Part shown: one piece after another, positions 50,939 through 56,852 of the stretch
How the letters are laid out: the number at the start of each line of letters is the position of its first letter
Numbering within the stretch: position 1 is the first letter of the stretch
Assembly: GCF_900105055.1 (NCBI RefSeq)
Contig: NZ_FNTA01000004.1
Coordinates: 6,603,501 to 6,667,500, forward strand
Direction: 5' to 3'
Origin: Amycolatopsis lurida
GTDB lineage: Bacteria > Actinomycetota > Actinomycetes > Mycobacteriales > Pseudonocardiaceae
Length of the DNA stretch: 64,000 nucleotides
Notes under the pieces: model-generated
The model's database searches: none
Seen by the model: only the letters and a program-made list of their open reading frames with translations
What the model was told of the DNA's origin: nothing
Translations under genes and position numbers: made by a program

Positions 50939-52120
50939 CTACTTGCGGTCCAGGGTGATCACCGCGCCGGGGCGGTGGCCGTTCCGGCGCGGCGTGACCG
51001 GACGTGGCTCGCGGGAGACCGCGACCCCGGCCGGCCGCTGCCGATCGGCGGGCAGGACCTCTCGCGAGTTCGTCCGGTCGGCCAGCCGCAGGGACTGCGC
51101 CGAGGTCAGCCACTCTTCGGCGGGCTCCGCGATTTCGAGCAGCAGCGCCTCGAACTCCGAGCGGGTGGTTTCGAGGATGTGCGGTGCCGCGAGCCAGCGC
51201 AGCACCTGGCGTCCGGTGACCGCCATCCGCTGCCGCGGCGACGACACCAGCCGCTGATCGAAGTAGCGGATCAGCACCTCGTCCACGGTGTCCCACGCGT
51301 TGGCCGCGCCGAACAGATCGAGCACGTCCTCCGAACCGAGGATCTTGAACGCCTCGGTCAGCAGCTGCATGACCTCCACCCGCAGCACGTTCAGATGGCC
51401 GTACGAGGTGAACTTCAGGTTGTTCCGCAGGTCGAGACCGCTGCGCCGGACGACCGCGACGCTGCCGAAGCTCGGGTCGTACGCGCGCTCGCGGACGACG
51501 TCCGAGATCCGCTTGTCCCGCCAGAACAACGCGACCTGGTTGCTGAACTGCGTGAACAGCTGGTGGAAATCGGTGTTCGGCCGCGAGTTCGCCGAACCGA
51601 GCCCCTTGCCGTAGCCGAGCACCCGCCGATACGCGCTGACGCGGTCCCGCCGGGTGTAGCGCAGGACGTCCCGCCGGTCGAACCGGTACAGGCCGAACGC
51701 GCCGGGGCCGTCCGAAAGCCGGATGGCCCCGCCTTGGAACAGCTCCTGCAGCTTCTGCACCACGCGGAACACGCCGATCCGTTCGTGCTGGTACAGGTAG
51801 TACAGGTCGCCGACCGCGATGACCCGCTCCGAAGCGACCGTCTCGTCGTAGGCGTCGACACCCGGCGGCATCGCCGTCGCGCCGAGGTCCGCGGCCGATC
51901 CATCGCCGAGACCTACGAGCTGCGCGATCCCGCCGTCCGCGGGCCCCGGTTTGCCCCGCTGTTCGGCCTCGACCGCGGTGAGCATGTCGTCCAGCTGCTT
52001 GAGGACCGCGTCGCCGAGTTTCGGATCGCTGCCCAGCTCGTTGGCGAGTTTCCCGGCGACCTGGCCGCGCAAGGCCGCGACCCGGTCGAAGAGTTCCCGG
52101 TATTCCTTTTCCGTGCCCAT
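50939..52120 (-). CDS. Unknown protein, last gene of the five-gene operon
   Basis: A 393-residue protein I do not recognise. A helical N-terminus (residues 1-55, RELFDRVAALRGQVAGKLAN) is followed by a short linker and a mixed alpha-beta central domain (about 85-330) rich in aromatic and Arg residues: LYYLYQHERIGVFRVVQKLQ, YRFDRRDVLRYTRRDRVSAY, HQLFTQFSNQVALFWRDKR. The C-terminus is basic and flexible. No signal peptide, membrane helix or catalytic motif is visible. It starts 24 bases after the previous gene's stop and is the end of the operon reading from 56202. Confidence 0.7.
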   Translation of the reverse strand: MGTEKEYRELFDRVAALRGQVAGKLANELGSDPKLGDAVLKQLDDMLTAVEAEQRGKPGPADGGIAQLVGLGDGSAADLGATAMPPGVDAYDETVASERVIAVGDLYYLYQHERIGVFRVVQKLQELFQGGAIRLSDGPGAFGLYRFDRRDVLRYTRRDRVSAYRRVLGYGKGLGSANSRPNTDFHQLFTQFSNQVALFWRDKRISDVVRERAYDPSFGSVAVVRRSGLDLRNNLKFTSYGHLNVLRVEVMQLLTEAFKILGSEDVLDLFGAANAWDTVDEVLIRYFDQRLVSSPRQRMAVTGRQVLRWLAAPHILETTRSEFEALLLEIAEPAEEWLTSAQSLRLADRTNSREVLPADRQRPAGVAVSREPRPVTPRRNGHRPGAVITLDRK

Positions 52121-52144
52121 CGTCTTCCTCCCGTACGGGTCCGG

Positions 52145-53515
52145 CTACTGCCCGGTCCGCTTGCGCGTGGTCCGGGGTTTCGGCGGTTCCTCCGCCTCGG
52201 GTGGTGCCTGCCCTTCCTGGATGCCGTGCCCCTCACGGAGTTCGGCGACCGACGGCACCGGTGGTGTCCGGCCGGGCGGTGGCGTGAGCTGCGGGGTGGG
52301 CGGGGCGGGCGGGTTCGGATCGGCCGGCGACGGCGAGCCTTCCCGGCCGATCGGTTCGGCGATCCGGACGACCTCCTGGAGGTGGTCGTCGAGTTCGTCG
52401 ATGGCCCGCTGCACACGGGAGCTGAAGAAACCAGGGGGAAGCGACGCGCGGAAGTTGCCCGGCACGTCTCCGTTGGGGCCGCCGGTGCTCTGCCGGGGAA
52501 GGTTCGCGACGATCCGCTGGAGCCGCATCGCGATCTGGAGGAACGACGTGCCGACCCCCTCCTTGCCCGCCGACTCGATCAGCTTGCCGCCCTCGAAGGT
52601 GGCGAATTCGCGGATCCAGCGCAGCAACCCGCCGAGCGACATAGTCCCGCCCTGCGGATCGGGGACCCGGAGCACTTCGAGGTCTTCCTGCTGGACGAAC
52701 ACCGACCGCAGCATCGCGACGACCTCGTCGACCTGTGACGCCGTCGCGGACAGCAGCCGGGAGAGGGCGACCACGGCGGGGCCGAAGAACGGCTGACCAC
52801 CGGCAGGCTGGGAGAACGGGTCGATCTTGTCTCGTGCGTCCTGCCAGCCCCTGAACAACGAGACCACCCAATCCGTCAGCGTGATGAAGGAGGTCTGGAT
52901 CCGTTCTTCCTCGATCGTGTTGACCTTGCCCGAGACCAGGCCGAACTCGTCCCGCAGCTGGCCGAGGTGTCCTTGCGTGCGGTCCCCGGCGCCGACCGCG
53001 AGACCACTGTTCCCGAGCAGCAGCAGGAAGAGCTGATCGACCCTGGCCACGCGGATCAGCGGGCTCTCCAGCTCCTGCCGGATCTGTTCGAGATCGTGCC
53101 GGACGAGCGCGCGGAAGCCCTCGGCGTTCTCGGGATCCGCGTCCGTCCTCAGTGGACGGAGTGAGTCGAGGAGTGCCAGCGAATCCTTGACCGCGCTCCT
53201 GGCCCTGGCCGCGAGCGAGGCCTGGCCACCGGTGACGGCGCCGAGATCGGCCTGGATCGCGTACCCGCGCGGAGTCCATTGCGCCTCGGTGCGCCCCTGG
53301 ACCTCTTTCAGCTCGAAGCTCCCGGTGAGCGCGGCCACGAAACCCTTCGTGTCGCCTTCGCGCCACTTCCAGCCGAGCATGTCACTGATCGTTTGTTCGG
53401 CGAGTTCGCCGGGTGCCGCCGCCGGCGGTGGGTACTGCCCGGTCGACAGCGGATACGCGCTGTCGATGTCCTGTGCGCGCGGCAACGTCGCGCCGCGGTC
53501 GTCGTTGATCGTCAT
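52145..53515 (-). CDS. Unknown protein, fourth gene of the operon
   Basis: A 456-residue protein with no family I can name. Residues 1-40 are polar and Pro-rich; a domain with GWKWREGDTKGFVAALTGSF and RGYAIQADLGAVTG follows; the middle is helical (DLEQIRQELESPLIRVARVD, QLFLLLLGNSGLAVG, ASQVDEVVAMLRSVF). The last 90 residues are Pro-rich (PPAPPTPQLTPPPGRTPPVP) and end basic (RTTRKRTGQ). Its start overlaps the previous stop (ATGA at 53512-53515). It looks like a scaffold or structural component, but that is inference. Confidence 0.7.
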   Translation of the reverse strand: MTINDDRGATLPRAQDIDSAYPLSTGQYPPPAAAPGELAEQTISDMLGWKWREGDTKGFVAALTGSFELKEVQGRTEAQWTPRGYAIQADLGAVTGGQASLAARARSAVKDSLALLDSLRPLRTDADPENAEGFRALVRHDLEQIRQELESPLIRVARVDQLFLLLLGNSGLAVGAGDRTQGHLGQLRDEFGLVSGKVNTIEEERIQTSFITLTDWVVSLFRGWQDARDKIDPFSQPAGGQPFFGPAVVALSRLLSATASQVDEVVAMLRSVFVQQEDLEVLRVPDPQGGTMSLGGLLRWIREFATFEGGKLIESAGKEGVGTSFLQIAMRLQRIVANLPRQSTGGPNGDVPGNFRASLPPGFFSSRVQRAIDELDDHLQEVVRIAEPIGREGSPSPADPNPPAPPTPQLTPPPGRTPPVPSVAELREGHGIQEGQAPPEAEEPPKPRTTRKRTGQ

Positions 53516-53976
53516 CGGGTCGCCCCACATCCCTTGAATTCGGCCAGTTCCACTGCTTCACGCCAGCACCGCACCATCACGTCCTCCGCCGAAGACAGGG
53601 CGGCGGCGCATTGGTCCACCCCGGCGTGGAAGCTCTTCGCCCAGCCCCGCCATTCCTGTTCCCGTCCGTGCACCGCGCGCAGCAGCCCGGAGACCGCGTG
53701 GTGCGAACGGCAGTGCCCGTCCACCCGCCGTCGCAGCTTCAGCAGCGACGACGCCGTGGTGTGCAACGATTCGGCGCTCACCGGGCACTGTGTCGCGCGC
53801 GTGGCGGCCTCGACCTCTCCGGTGCCGTCCAGGACGACTTCGGCGAGGTGATCCGCCGCGGCGAGCCCGACACCGGCCGGCCGGTCTTCGGCGACGCTGA
53901 TCTCCAAAGCCCGCCAGCACGCGGCCACCTGGTTCACTTCCATGCCCAGCCGGGAGAATTCGGTGTGGAGCGTCAT
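53512..53976 (-). CDS. Unknown small helical protein, third gene of the operon
   Basis: A 154-residue, mostly helical protein with five Cys residues (ACWRAL, TQCPV, GHCRSHH, DQCAAAL, VRCWREA, some possibly redox or metal-related) and a final GCGATR. No membrane segment or signal peptide. Both ends overlap neighbouring genes by four bases, so it is translationally coupled to the peptidase-like gene before it and the 456-residue gene after it. No family recognised. Confidence 0.65.
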   Translation of the reverse strand: MTLHTEFSRLGMEVNQVAACWRALEISVAEDRPAGVGLAAADHLAEVVLDGTGEVEAATRATQCPVSAESLHTTASSLLKLRRRVDGHCRSHHAVSGLLRAVHGREQEWRGWAKSFHAGVDQCAAALSSAEDVMVRCWREAVELAEFKGCGATR

Positions 53977-55316
53977 CTCGCCCTCCTGCCGAGTTCTTCC
54001 ATGAAGAAACCGGAAAGCCGTTTCGGTGGCGCCATCCGTTGGTCGAGCGCGAACCGCACCGCGCCGATGAGGAACCGCTCCGGCACCACGCCCGGGGACA
54101 CCCCGTCGGCCAGTCTTTCCGCGGCTTCTTCGATCATCGCCTGTTCCTTGGCTTCGAACCGCAGCACCTTCGCCAGCGAACGGTGACCCAGCGAAGGGAA
54201 CGACGTGAAGCACATCGCGTCCACCACCGTGGGAATCGCCTTGTCCGCCGTCTTCAGCAGCGCCGGCGGCGCGTTGACCAGCTTCGCCCGCGGGTACAGC
54301 TTGTGCCACATCGACGCGTAGGACTTCGCGTGCCGGGCGAAACCCATGCGTCGCAACAACTCCACGGAGATCTTCGCGCGAAGGTACGGCACCGGGTGGA
54401 CCGCCCGAGGGGCGAACCCCGTCGTTTCGAGCTCGGTGCGCCCGATGACGTCGAACAGCGAACCGACGACCGCCGGGCCGCCCAGCAACAGCGCGGACAG
54501 GTCGGCGAACGTCTCCCGGTTCCACCTGACCCAGACCGAGGTCACCTCGCGCGGGACCCCCGCCTCGACGAGCCTCGCCGCCACCTGGAGCGGGATCGCC
54601 CTGGCGAGGCCCAGATCGTTCTGCAGGTTGTGACTCACCTCGTGCAGCACCGCGCCGAGCGTCCACGGGTTCACCAGCCGGTGGTACGGAAGCTGGATCA
54701 GCGGGAAGGGATTGAGCCGGTTCCCCAGGCGCCGCAAGGGGATCCCGCGGCGCGAGGTGGCCGGGCCGGACCCGGTGCGCAGGTAGCAGAACGGTGGCGG
54801 GGTCGGGATCGATCGCCAGCGCCCGATCCCGAGGTAGGCGTACTGATAGCAGTCGAGCGCCACCCGGTCGCAGGCCACCAGCCACGGGGCGAACGCGCCC
54901 TGCCGCTGGTTGAACAGGTCGAGGTAGAAGTCCCACACCCGCTCGGTGGTCCTGACCCAGCGCTGGGCGCGGGACTTCGCCTGCAGGAGCCGGGCGAGTT
55001 CGGCCTGTTCCGGCCGTTTCACCGCCTCCTGCGCCGTCCTGCGGGTCACGCGGGTCGCGGTGAACAACGGTCCCCGCAGGGTCGCCATCATGCGGTTGAC
55101 CGCCGCCAGATGGGCCCGGCTCGGCCCGGTCGCCGGATCGCCGAACTCCGACCAGCGGAACGGCCGCAACGCGTCCAGATGCCGTTCCACGTTGGTGGCC
55201 TGGGAGAGGACCCATGCCTCCAGTTCCCTCCCGCCGGATGGCCTCGCCCGCCGCGCTCCGGCAGGAGGGACCGGGGCACCGGATGCCGCGGGGAGCGCCT
55301 TAACGGCGGCGCGCAC
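53973..55316 (-). CDS. Putative zinc metallopeptidase (HEVSH), second gene of the operon
   Basis: A 447-residue protein (from GTG 55316; the start is uncertain). The motif LGAVLHEVSHNLQNDLG gives HExxH at His225-Glu226-His229, and NRETFADLSALLLGG offers Glu267 as a third zinc ligand, a gluzincin-like spacing of 38 residues. Basic residues dominate the first 150 positions. No signal peptide is obvious, so it is probably cytoplasmic. It may cleave its operon partners, such as the acidic/basic protein encoded just upstream, but its substrate is not known. The true N-terminus could lie further inside. Confidence 0.65.
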   Translation of the reverse strand: MRAAVKALPAASGAPVPPAGARRARPSGGRELEAWVLSQATNVERHLDALRPFRWSEFGDPATGPSRAHLAAVNRMMATLRGPLFTATRVTRRTAQEAVKRPEQAELARLLQAKSRAQRWVRTTERVWDFYLDLFNQRQGAFAPWLVACDRVALDCYQYAYLGIGRWRSIPTPPPFCYLRTGSGPATSRRGIPLRRLGNRLNPFPLIQLPYHRLVNPWTLGAVLHEVSHNLQNDLGLARAIPLQVAARLVEAGVPREVTSVWVRWNRETFADLSALLLGGPAVVGSLFDVIGRTELETTGFAPRAVHPVPYLRAKISVELLRRMGFARHAKSYASMWHKLYPRAKLVNAPPALLKTADKAIPTVVDAMCFTSFPSLGHRSLAKVLRFEAKEQAMIEEAAERLADGVSPGVVPERFLIGAVRFALDQRMAPPKRLSGFFMEELGRRAR

Positions 55317-56202
55317 GGCCGCGCGCCCGCTTGCTCTGTGCGGCACGACGCCGGTTGCGCTGTGCGGCGGTCCGTGGCGGGACACGCCGTGTCGTCCGGC
55401 GACGCCGTGCACCCGGGCGCTGTGCCGCCGCACGTCGCCGCGCGGGCTGCTTGCGTCGCGTGTTCTTCTTCTTCGTCCGCTTCAGCAGCTTGTCCGCCCC
55501 GAAGCTGACAGCGCCACCGATCAACGCGTTCGACAGCCAGCCGGGCGTCATCTGCATACCCGTGCGGAGGCCTTTCTTGACCTTCGCCGCGGTGCGTTTG
55601 ACGATCTGCGGGACACGCCGGACGAGGTGTCGCGTGCCCGGATTACGCCAGAGCTTGCGGCCGAGGGTGGTGGCGCCACGGATGATCTTCGGGGCCACCG
55701 AGCGCACGACCGGGGCGAGCCGGGGCAGCGCGCGAACGGCCAGCGCCGCCAGCGGTCCGATGAACGCCTCGGCTTCCTCCTCGGTCTCCGCCTGTTCCGC
55801 CTGGAAGGCCAGCCGGGCCAGCTGATCGGCGTCGGGATAGAGGCGACGCAGCGGATTGACGAAGTCCTCGCCTTCGAACTCGTCCTCGAACTCGAACTCC
55901 TCCTCGAGCTCGCGGACCAGGTTCTCGAACTCTGCCTCGAATTCGTCCTCGTCCTCGAACTCGAACTCGTAGAGCGCTTCGTCCTCGTCTTCGAGTTCGT
56001 CTTCGAGTTCCTGGGCCAGTTCACCCAGCTCGTCTTCGGCCTCGAACTCGTAGAGCGCTTCGTCCTCGTCTTCGAGTTCGTCCTCCAGCTCATAGGCCAG
56101 CTCGCCGAGCGCACCCTCCAGCTCGTCCTCGAACTCGTCCTCGAACTCACGGCTCAGCTCGTCTTCCAACTCGCCGTCCACTGCCGCATAGCCACGGCTC
56201 AT
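55300..56202 (-). CDS. Charge-polarised acidic/basic protein, first gene of the operon
   Basis: A 300-residue protein. Residues 11-115 are almost purely Glu/Asp with regularly spaced Phe, Leu and Tyr (EFEDEFEDELEG), including two 27-residue repeats built on ELEDELEDEDEALYEFE. Residues 145-210 form a conserved-looking helical core (EAFIGPLAALAVRALPRLAP, GRKLWRNPGTRHLVRRVPQI). Residues 205-300 are extremely Arg/Lys-rich. It resembles acidic-repeat proteins in unrelated bacteria seen from memory, none with a known function. GAGGAG precedes the ATG at 56202. Candidate roles: scaffold, condensate former, nucleic-acid binder or protease substrate. Confidence 0.7.
   Translation of the reverse strand: MSRGYAAVDGELEDELSREFEDEFEDELEGALGELAYELEDELEDEDEALYEFEAEDELGELAQELEDELEDEDEALYEFEFEDEDEFEAEFENLVRELEEEFEFEDEFEGEDFVNPLRRLYPDADQLARLAFQAEQAETEEEAEAFIGPLAALAVRALPRLAPVVRSVAPKIIRGATTLGRKLWRNPGTRHLVRRVPQIVKRTAAKVKKGLRTGMQMTPGWLSNALIGGAVSFGADKLLKRTKKKNTRRKQPARRRAAAQRPGARRRRTTRRVPPRTAAQRNRRRAAQSKRARGRARRR
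55960..56121 (-). repeat. Two 81-bp tandem units in the acidic protein gene
   Basis: Two adjacent 81-base units (boundaries approximate) encode the 27-residue repeats ending ALYEFE. The shared core starting at 55960 and again at 56041 is nearly identical at DNA level over about 40 bases, suggesting recent duplication or slippage. Confidence 0.65.
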
Positions 56203-56302
56203 AACCCGTTCTCCTCTGCTCCGGTGAAAATCCCGCGGTCCCCGGCGCGGTGCGTCGGTGAGCACGGACCCGACACTGCCCGCGCACCGGGGCACACCGG
56301 TA

Positions 56303-56351
56303 GTCACACGTTCCTGTGTGACATGAATCGACTAGTTCGGACTTGTCACAC
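56303..56351. promoter_or_regulatory. GTCACAC repeats between LuxR gene and unknown operon
   Basis: GTCACAC at 56303-56309 and GTGTGAC at 56316-56322 form a perfect inverted repeat with a six-base centre, a size fitting a LuxR-type dimer. A third GTCACAC lies at 56345-56351, 42 bases from the first (four helical turns). AATCGAC also recurs beside each. The region separates the two divergent start codons. Confidence 0.55.
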
Positions 56352-56426
56352 AAATCGACGATGCGCTTTTCCTGTCGGAGGGGTTTGCTAGAGAGGGAGG
56401 GAAACCAAGAGGGGGGAGGCCGGTCT

Positions 56427-56852
56427 ATGTCCACGAGCCCGGCGGTGGGATTTCCTGCGGCACCGATACACGATCTCGCGCGGCAGCGGAGGAAGGTCGC
56501 TTCGGAAGACGAAACCGTGCGAAGCCTGGCGAGGTCGCTCGTCCGGCGGGTCACGGAACTGAGCGACGGGGAGGCCGCGACGCGGAGACCGTTGCTGGAC
56601 CTCACCGAGCACGGCGTCAGATGCCTGCTGGTGCCGGTGACACCGGAGGCGCACGACCTGCTCAGCCCGCGCGAGCACGAAGTGGCGCGCATGGTGAGCC
56701 GGGGCTATACGAACAAACAGATCGCCGGCGTACTGGAAATCAGTCTGAACACGGTTTCCGCGCATATGCGGCGGATCTTCACCAAACTGGGGGTCGGCAC
56801 CCGTGCGGCGATGGTCGCCGCGTTGACGGGGGAGAATCTCGCCGCCGTATGA
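56427..56852 (+). CDS. Small LuxR-type transcriptional regulator
   Basis: A 141-residue protein with a C-terminal LuxR helix-turn-helix at about 79-123 (LSPREHEVARMVSRGYTNKQ, IAGVLEISLNTVSAHMRRIF, TKLGV). The N-terminal 75 residues contain no receiver or sensor domain I recognise, so it is a solo regulator or answers to a partner protein. GGGAGG precedes the ATG at 56427. It diverges from the five-gene operon and is the likely controller of it. Confidence 0.85.
   Translation: MSTSPAVGFPAAPIHDLARQRRKVASEDETVRSLARSLVRRVTELSDGEAATRRPLLDLTEHGVRCLLVPVTPEAHDLLSPREHEVARMVSRGYTNKQIAGVLEISLNTVSAHMRRIFTKLGVGTRAAMVAALTGENLAAV

Follow-up and report, generated by a model that had tools for sequence, protein, structure and literature searches.

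Five consecutive genes on the minus strand of a 64,000-nucleotide stretch of Amycolatopsis lurida DNA (the window, meaning the whole stretch that was analysed) are one copy of a gene set that is real, under selection and shared across phyla, and that combines a putative metallopeptidase with a dedicated class of charge-polarised proteins. We refer to the five genes as E1 to E5 and to the set as the cassette. Since an identical gene order was found in other genera, families and phyla, and since Ka/Ks was below 0.5 for each gene in all seven strain pairs tried (7/7), the cassette exists beyond chance. With regard to its function, the cassette may serve protein antagonism or effector delivery, a tentative reading that we place a little short of probable. 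The genes and the regulator from which they diverge are arranged in the window as follows.

55300-56202, minus strand: E1, 300 aa, ATG start; acidic/aromatic N-terminal part, E1 core domain of ~105 aa, Arg/Lys-rich tail
53973-55316, minus strand: E2, 447 aa, GTG start; putative zinc metallopeptidase, contains HEVSH
53512-53976, minus strand: E3, 154 aa, ATG start; small accessory protein, poorly conserved
52145-53515, minus strand: E4, 456 aa, ATG start; conserved core and Pro-rich C-terminal tail
50939-52120, minus strand: E5, 393 aa, ATG start; most conserved member, all-alpha model
56427-56852, plus strand: LuxR-type regulator, 141 aa, divergent from the operon; GerE helix-turn-helix match at E=2.1e-17

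E1 and E2 overlap by 17 bases, E2 and E3 by 4 and E3 and E4 by 4, and a gap of 24 bases separates E4 from E5. The initial annotation had described five minus-strand genes of these lengths, with these overlaps and this gap, facing a 141-residue LuxR-type gene, and the arrangement was reproduced from the open reading frame (ORF) coordinates, with the GerE/LuxR match identifying the regulator. The charge-polarised acidic/basic protein that it mentioned is E1, in which residues 1-115 carry a net charge of −56 and residues 216-300 a net charge of +30; its HEVSH putative peptidase is E2, in which the gluzincin-like motif is invariant across 33 sequences; and its Pro-rich tail is present in the C-terminal part of E4. 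The view that none of the proteins fits a described system also held, as none of E1-E5 had a significant hit in Pfam, NCBIfam, PHROGs or PADLOC. The cassette is thus without a counterpart among the families of these four libraries, and no description of such a cassette was found in the literature, which was searched without locus tags. In comparisons with the sequences of solved structures, the best values were obtained for the E2 sequence at E=0.79, the E2 profile at E=0.048 (a designed protein), the E4 profile at E=0.1 (a designed protein) and the E5 profile at E=0.0026 (a type III antifreeze protein, over 41 positions), all of which we regard as chance. Weak Pfam matches among the 33 E2 members, namely T6SS_FHA_C (3 members, best 0.0034), DUF294_C (1 member, 0.0013) and Zn_peptidase (1 member, 0.19), were set aside because at most 5 of the 33 agree on one family.

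Distribution and co-inheritance of the cassette

Among 60 genomes including the host of the studied copy (9.05 Mb), full-length E5 was found in 12 (the host and 11 others) and a 34-residue E5 remnant in a thirteenth, and E2 and the E1 core domain were present in exactly those 12 genomes. The full cassette occurs in 9 of 35 same-genus relatives and in 2 of 24 genomes from other families of the order, and in an even draw of 396 actinobacterial genomes E5 and E1 were found only in the host itself (0 of the 395 others). By E5, the closest named loci are those of Amycolatopsis keratiniphila and A. decaplanina (99% identical). The initial annotation had considered that the genes might not co-occur outside close relatives; this is excluded, as the set is kept in distant genomes and recurs as a neighbourhood across several phyla. 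A pattern-based scan of the collection for E5 recovered 46 loci in seven phyla, assigned from record titles, with hosts in the Actinomycetota, Cyanobacteria, Chloroflexi and Alphaproteobacteria and single metagenome-derived contigs titled Acidobacteria, Armatimonadetes and Phycisphaera. Beside E5 in these 46 loci, we found E2 in 43, E4 in 40 and E3 in 25, with E2-E5 on one strand; in the three loci where E2 is missing, the contig ends near E5. An E1-type gene lies upstream in 42 loci, 27 of which have two copies and 15 a single copy. A Paraburkholderia plasmid carries a copy with E1, E2, E3, E4 and E5. Within the order of one cyanobacterial host, an E5 match was present in 7 of 195 genomes, four of the close form and three remote; one of the close copies (L118, on G655:C143, a contig as long as the one that carries L058) contains internal stops.

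E1, E2, E4 and E5 travel as a set. Their divergences were correlated among representative loci (L031, L039, L041, L045, L049, L058 and L065 were dropped as cut contigs or near-duplicates), with r=0.84 for E5/E2 (31 loci), 0.72 for E2/E4 (29), 0.65 for E5/E4 (29), 0.68 for E2/E1 (31) and 0.58 for E5/E1 (31), and each of these values was reached by 0 of 999 permutations. In one strain of the same genus (L025, 6745-7006), a decayed cassette with fragments of E5, E4 and LuxR lies between the same flanking genes. Two further Amycolatopsis loci (L021 and L022) carry the cassette without the flanking genes of the studied copy, which suggests that the cassette and its LuxR gene are mobile as one unit.

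The charge-polarised protein E1 and the variable genes after E5

An acidic front and a basic tail were found in all 80 of the E1-type ORFs collected from 48 loci (75 distinct sequences), a table in which starts were guessed and two loci were entered twice under different ids, leaving 76 ORFs without the duplicates. E1-type proteins are dedicated to this cassette in the genomes searched: the core domain of ~105 residues was present in 20 of 20 cassette genomes, many of them draft or metagenome-derived, giving 39 hits (1-3 per genome), and a coordinate comparison placed all 39 inside cassette regions. Two genomes (L047 and L052) have a third E1-type copy after E5. A GxxxGxxxG motif occurs in 48 of the 80 ORFs and is absent from the E1 of the studied copy. 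Within Amycolatopsis, E1 falls into two allele groups, the studied copy being 93% alike to L017 and 60% to L014 over aligned columns. Comparing the studied copy with L014, Ks was 0.81 for E1, 0.09-0.26 for E2-E5 and the neighbouring gene, and 0.37 for LuxR; because Ks of E1 far exceeds that of E2-E5, exchange between strains has apparently affected E1 and, less strongly, its regulator. Positive selection on E1 was set aside in favour of allele replacement as the better reading because Ka/Ks stayed below 0.5 in every pair.

In many other loci, E5 is followed on the same strand, mostly within ~400 bases, by an enzyme gene that differs from locus to locus. The commonest of these follow-on genes encodes an M20 peptidase, which was found in 13 of the 46 loci and on the Paraburkholderia plasmid (by blastp, and by Pfam for L036, L043, L039 and L038); it lies ~0.8 kb downstream in L069 and after an M15 gene in L070. 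The remaining follow-on products are listed below.

Trypsin-like peptidase: L024/L059
M15-type peptidase: L049, L053, L054, L070
DUF2272: L051
Peptidoglycan-binding and OmpA domains: L046
Het-C: L040
Non-specific endonuclease: L050 (just over the cut-off)
GIY-YIG: L071 (Pfam)
E1-type protein: L047, L052
ORFs without a Pfam match: L042, L048, L056, L057, L066

A GIY-YIG domain read by eye in L042 was not confirmed by Pfam and is not claimed. Further downstream, an amidohydrolase gene was observed in five loci from different phyla (L039, L040, L043, L050 (Amidohydro_2) and L069). A common N-terminal part is present in the follow-on ORFs of L048 and L071 (79% identical) and in those of L042, L044, L050, L056 and L060. 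Past residue 140, the match between L042 and L044 is the one found among six follow-on ORFs compared, and the C-terminal parts of L042, L050, L056, L048 and L071 show no match to each other. Constant N-terminal with non-matching C-terminal parts, a possible polymorphic-toxin layout, are seen in the follow-on ORFs of some loci and not in the studied copy. Two or more [DE][FYW][DE] motifs were found in 6 of 9 cyanobacterial follow-on ORFs, compared to 2 of 47 control ORFs of at least 200 codons, which were taken from stop to stop and are thus partly non-coding (the fragmentary L060 ORF was left out); two of the six motif-bearing ORFs are themselves E1-type copies. In the studied copy, the gene 27 bases after E5, which we take to be cystathionine-synthase-like, was considered as cargo and rejected because this flanking metabolic gene is retained in L025, which has lost most of the cassette.

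A different explanation of these data is that E1 itself is what the cassette produces: it would be a bacteriocin-like proprotein with an acidic half that masks a cationic core and tail until E2 cuts it, with E4 and E5 as chaperone or export partners and the follow-on peptidases as further maturation enzymes. The charge polarity of every E1-type ORF fits such a proprotein, as do the glycine motif found in 48 of the 80 (the E1 of the studied copy not among them) and the prominence of peptidases among the follow-on genes. A precedent is offered by Caulobacter Cdz, described as a pair of surface-associated glycine zipper killing proteins (PMC5380434). However, the nuclease, Het-C, OmpA and peptidoglycan-binding follow-on proteins are no obvious maturation enzymes, the conservation of E4 and E5 would exceed the need of a simple chaperone pair, and no transporter gene was noticed in the cassette, for which no profile search for transporters was made. 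Taken together, we consider a bacteriocin-like E1 rather unlikely.

E2 to E5 and the divergent promoter region

Gluzincin-type zinc peptidases carry an HExxH...E motif. In E2, residues H225, E226 and H229 (HExxH, 225-229), E268 and D272 were invariant in 33 sequences, which agrees with the gluzincin-type pattern of HExxH and a downstream Glu ligand. The AlphaFold2 (AF2) model of E2 (pLDDT 85.4, pTM 0.85) places the motif on helices, and structure searches with this model gave no significant match among solved folds, a result that, as for E5, does not establish a new fold; since the model matches no known fold, it is from motif conservation that E2 is called a putative metallopeptidase. Across the 33 E2 proteins, nine Pfam families gave a match at E<=1, and DUF4157, the PVC peptidase family, is not one of them, in a search whose HMMER filters discard very weak matches.

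E2-like proteins were also observed outside the cassette. A second, distant one lies elsewhere in two Amycolatopsis genomes (G003:C1:8384889-8385425, E 8e-11; G005:C2:460707-461255, E 5e-12), and remote E2-like peptidases, 25-28% identical, are encoded on rhizobial plasmids (L074, 11755-13176; L075, 11737-13125; L076). The remote plasmid relatives retain an HExxH-type motif and a downstream E..D (two proteins, read by eye). CHAT-domain proteins are encoded near the E2-like gene on both annotated rhizobial plasmids, and in the Bradyrhizobium case patatin, phospholipase D and S8/S53 peptidase genes are nearby; no E5 match was found in a stretch of ~25 kb containing each of the three rhizobial genes. 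These neighbourhoods, with CHAT-domain proteins on two plasmids and also patatin and phospholipase D on one, would suit a system that acts inside the cell, for defence or suicide, with E2 cutting cell proteins once triggered. Such a role is highly improbable for the cassette, as E1-E5 gave 0 matches at E<=1 to the PADLOC anti-phage defence models, the rhizobial proteins are only distantly alike and have no E5 match in those ~25 kb, and the wall-related follow-on domains misfit an intracellular role.

E5 is the most conserved member, at 44-90% to the studied copy in the 34 relatives aligned, and its AF2 model is all-alpha with middling confidence (pLDDT 70.5) and has no PDB fold match at E<=0.001. 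A separate operon that encodes an S8 peptidase and a number of unannotated proteins includes a remote E5-like form of about 580-600 aa; it was observed in three cyanobacterial genomes (L114-L116) and on a Burkholderia pyrrocinia plasmid (L073, 11236-13041 and 16866-17861, the second Burkholderia protein being 331 aa). The E3 profile matched in 25 of the 46 loci, with no match in the cyanobacterial or alphaproteobacterial loci or in L030 and L032. The E4 profile matched in 40 of 46, marginally in alphaproteobacteria, where, in three of the five loci inspected, the ORF at the E4 position has 620-633 codons and resembles E4 only marginally. E4 relatives differ by added regions, PASTA or others: of eight E4 proteins scanned with Pfam, that of Blastococcus has two PASTA stretches (E=1.5e-18), two from cyanobacteria have weak transthyretin-like matches (E=0.002-0.003, below the curated cut-off), and the remaining five have no match better than E 0.01. 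In a 19-residue hydropathy test, no strongly hydrophobic start was found in E2 (31 proteins), E3 (16), E5 (34) or full-length E4 ORFs (46), and a strongly hydrophobic stretch at any position was found in 3 of 31 E2 proteins and 0 of 80 E1-type ORFs. The N-termini of the follow-on proteins look hydrophilic by eye.

The PASTA stretches in one E4, the wall-related follow-on domains and the complementary charged arms of E1 could also belong to a protease-controlled surface or matrix scaffold, in which the E1 arms would assemble on the cell into a condensate or fibre, while E2 together with the follow-on enzymes would remodel scaffold or wall in development. Some of the host groups have a filamentous lifestyle, as would be expected for such a role. 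On the other hand, the cassette is patchily distributed (12 of 60 relatives, host included, and 0 of 395 other actinobacteria), has decayed in one strain and shows E1 allele exchange, which is more in keeping with an accessory conflict trait, and the nucleases would be left unexplained, so that we regard a developmental scaffold as improbable. The initial annotation had read fixed stoichiometry, an assembled machine or a protease-controlled scaffold from the tight gene coupling; what stands of this is an unannotated recurring set with a peptidase motif, and those three proposals are conjectural. The variable enzyme gene found after E5 elsewhere, together with E1 allele exchange, points to effector biology rather than a housekeeping scaffold.

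With respect to regulation, 31 of the 46 loci have a LuxR-profile match at E<=1e-8 in the interval from −9.5 to +2.5 kb around E5, and five more have one slightly further downstream; the profile is small and could also catch unrelated LuxR proteins. In L037, L038 and L041 (Nocardioides and Mycolicibacterium), the LuxR-type gene was observed downstream, past the M20 peptidase, and not upstream. The divergent intergenic region of the studied copy spans 224 bases and contains the following candidate element.

56303..56352, unstranded: candidate operator with inverted repeats I5 (GTCACAC-6-GTGTGAC) and I3 (TGTGTGACA-20-TGTCACACA)

The TGTCACAC element was kept in all 10 of the aligned Amycolatopsis loci, and of 10 Amycolatopsis loci five have the exact GTGTGAC arm, three differ from it by one base and two have lost it, both of the latter copies sitting at another chromosomal site. 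Allowing up to two mismatches, the pattern TGTCACACRAATNGACGATGCG occurs once genome-wide, which fits the expectation for a local switch.

Proposed mechanism and comparison with known systems

Taking the anatomy and co-inheritance described above as the starting point, we infer a possible course of events for the effector-delivery reading. E2, E4 and E5, with E3 where present, would form a cytoplasmic complex to which E1 binds, its acidic and basic arms neutralising each other, and the complex would be loaded with E1 and, in loci that have one, with the downstream enzyme as cargo. E2 would cut E1 or the cargo for arming or release, and E4 may contact the outside or the target wall, as one relative's E4 carries peptidoglycan-binding PASTA domains. 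Release would proceed without a signal peptide, possibly by lysis, and the divergent LuxR protein would switch the operon. As no cargo gene was recognised after E5 in this Amycolatopsis, the role of effector or carrier would here fall to E1. In its most specific form, the proposal is an undescribed protein weapon independent of phage tails and spread over at least seven phyla, in which a cytoplasmic E2/E4/E5 assembly loads charge-segregated E1 carriers and interchangeable enzymes and the metallopeptidase arms or frees them; this fuller version is possible, and we hold it to be doubtful.

Several observations speak against effector delivery. The commonest follow-on gene, the M20 peptidase (13 of 46 loci), encodes no obvious toxin; outside the cyanobacteria, none of eight follow-on ORFs tested had two acidic-aromatic motifs; and no follow-on cargo was recognised in the Amycolatopsis and Saccharopolyspora copies. 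The E2 and E5 models match no known fold, the peptidase call being drawn from the conserved motif, and the export route has no known candidate. Furthermore, co-divergence of E3 with E5 was unconvincing (r=0.27, reached by 60 of 999 permutations, 17 loci), and E3 is often absent.

A link to phage tails was evaluated by comparing the cassette with contractile-sheath genes. A sheath gene was present in 12 of 20 cassette genomes versus 3 of 14 named control genomes, the eight cassette genomes without one including some that are incomplete, and none of the 23 sheath hits in the 20 genomes lay at the cassette. In the 60 relatives, sheath genes were found in 7 of 12 genomes with the cassette versus 19 of 48 others (Fisher p=0.33). 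Relatives of E5 or E2 were not found in viral contigs by pattern-based scans or in phage records by tblastn, so that a phage origin of the cassette gains no support from these searches; together with the unlinked sheath genes, this argues against a phage-tail device.

The cassette brings together four co-inherited families (E1, E2, E4 and E5), ranging from Actinomycetota to Cyanobacteria and Pseudomonadota, that have no significant family match in the studied copy, and it is a compact system directly testable in culturable Amycolatopsis. If effector delivery or arming is its function, it would be a machine without visible tie to phage tails, and the follow-on genes would mark new effector families, including the Pfam-unmatched ORFs of L042, L048, L056, L057 and L066.

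Like gluzincins, E2 has an invariant HExxH with downstream Glu and Asp; unlike them, it matches no family or fold significantly. Extracellular contractile injection systems (eCIS; PMC8213781) supply the model borrowed here, in which a particle delivers toxins; unlike eCIS, the cassette is not associated with sheath genes (present in 7 of 12 cassette genomes and 19 of 48 others, p=0.33). The paired E1-type proteins and the glycine zipper motifs in many of them resemble Cdz (PMC5380434), whereas E1-type proteins are charge-polarised and accompanied by E2, E4 and E5, and the single E1 of the studied copy lacks the GxxxGxxxG motif. Polymorphic toxin systems, including PVC-metallopeptidase toxins, were described by Zhang et al. 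2012 (PMC3482391), according to whom immunity genes are often missing for PVC-class toxins. The cassette differs from PVC-metallopeptidase toxins in that its peptidase is a separate gene without a DUF4157-type Pfam match and without a sheath gene nearby. What it has in common with polymorphic toxin systems is that constant parts stand beside variable toxin-like enzymes and that an HExxH peptidase is involved.

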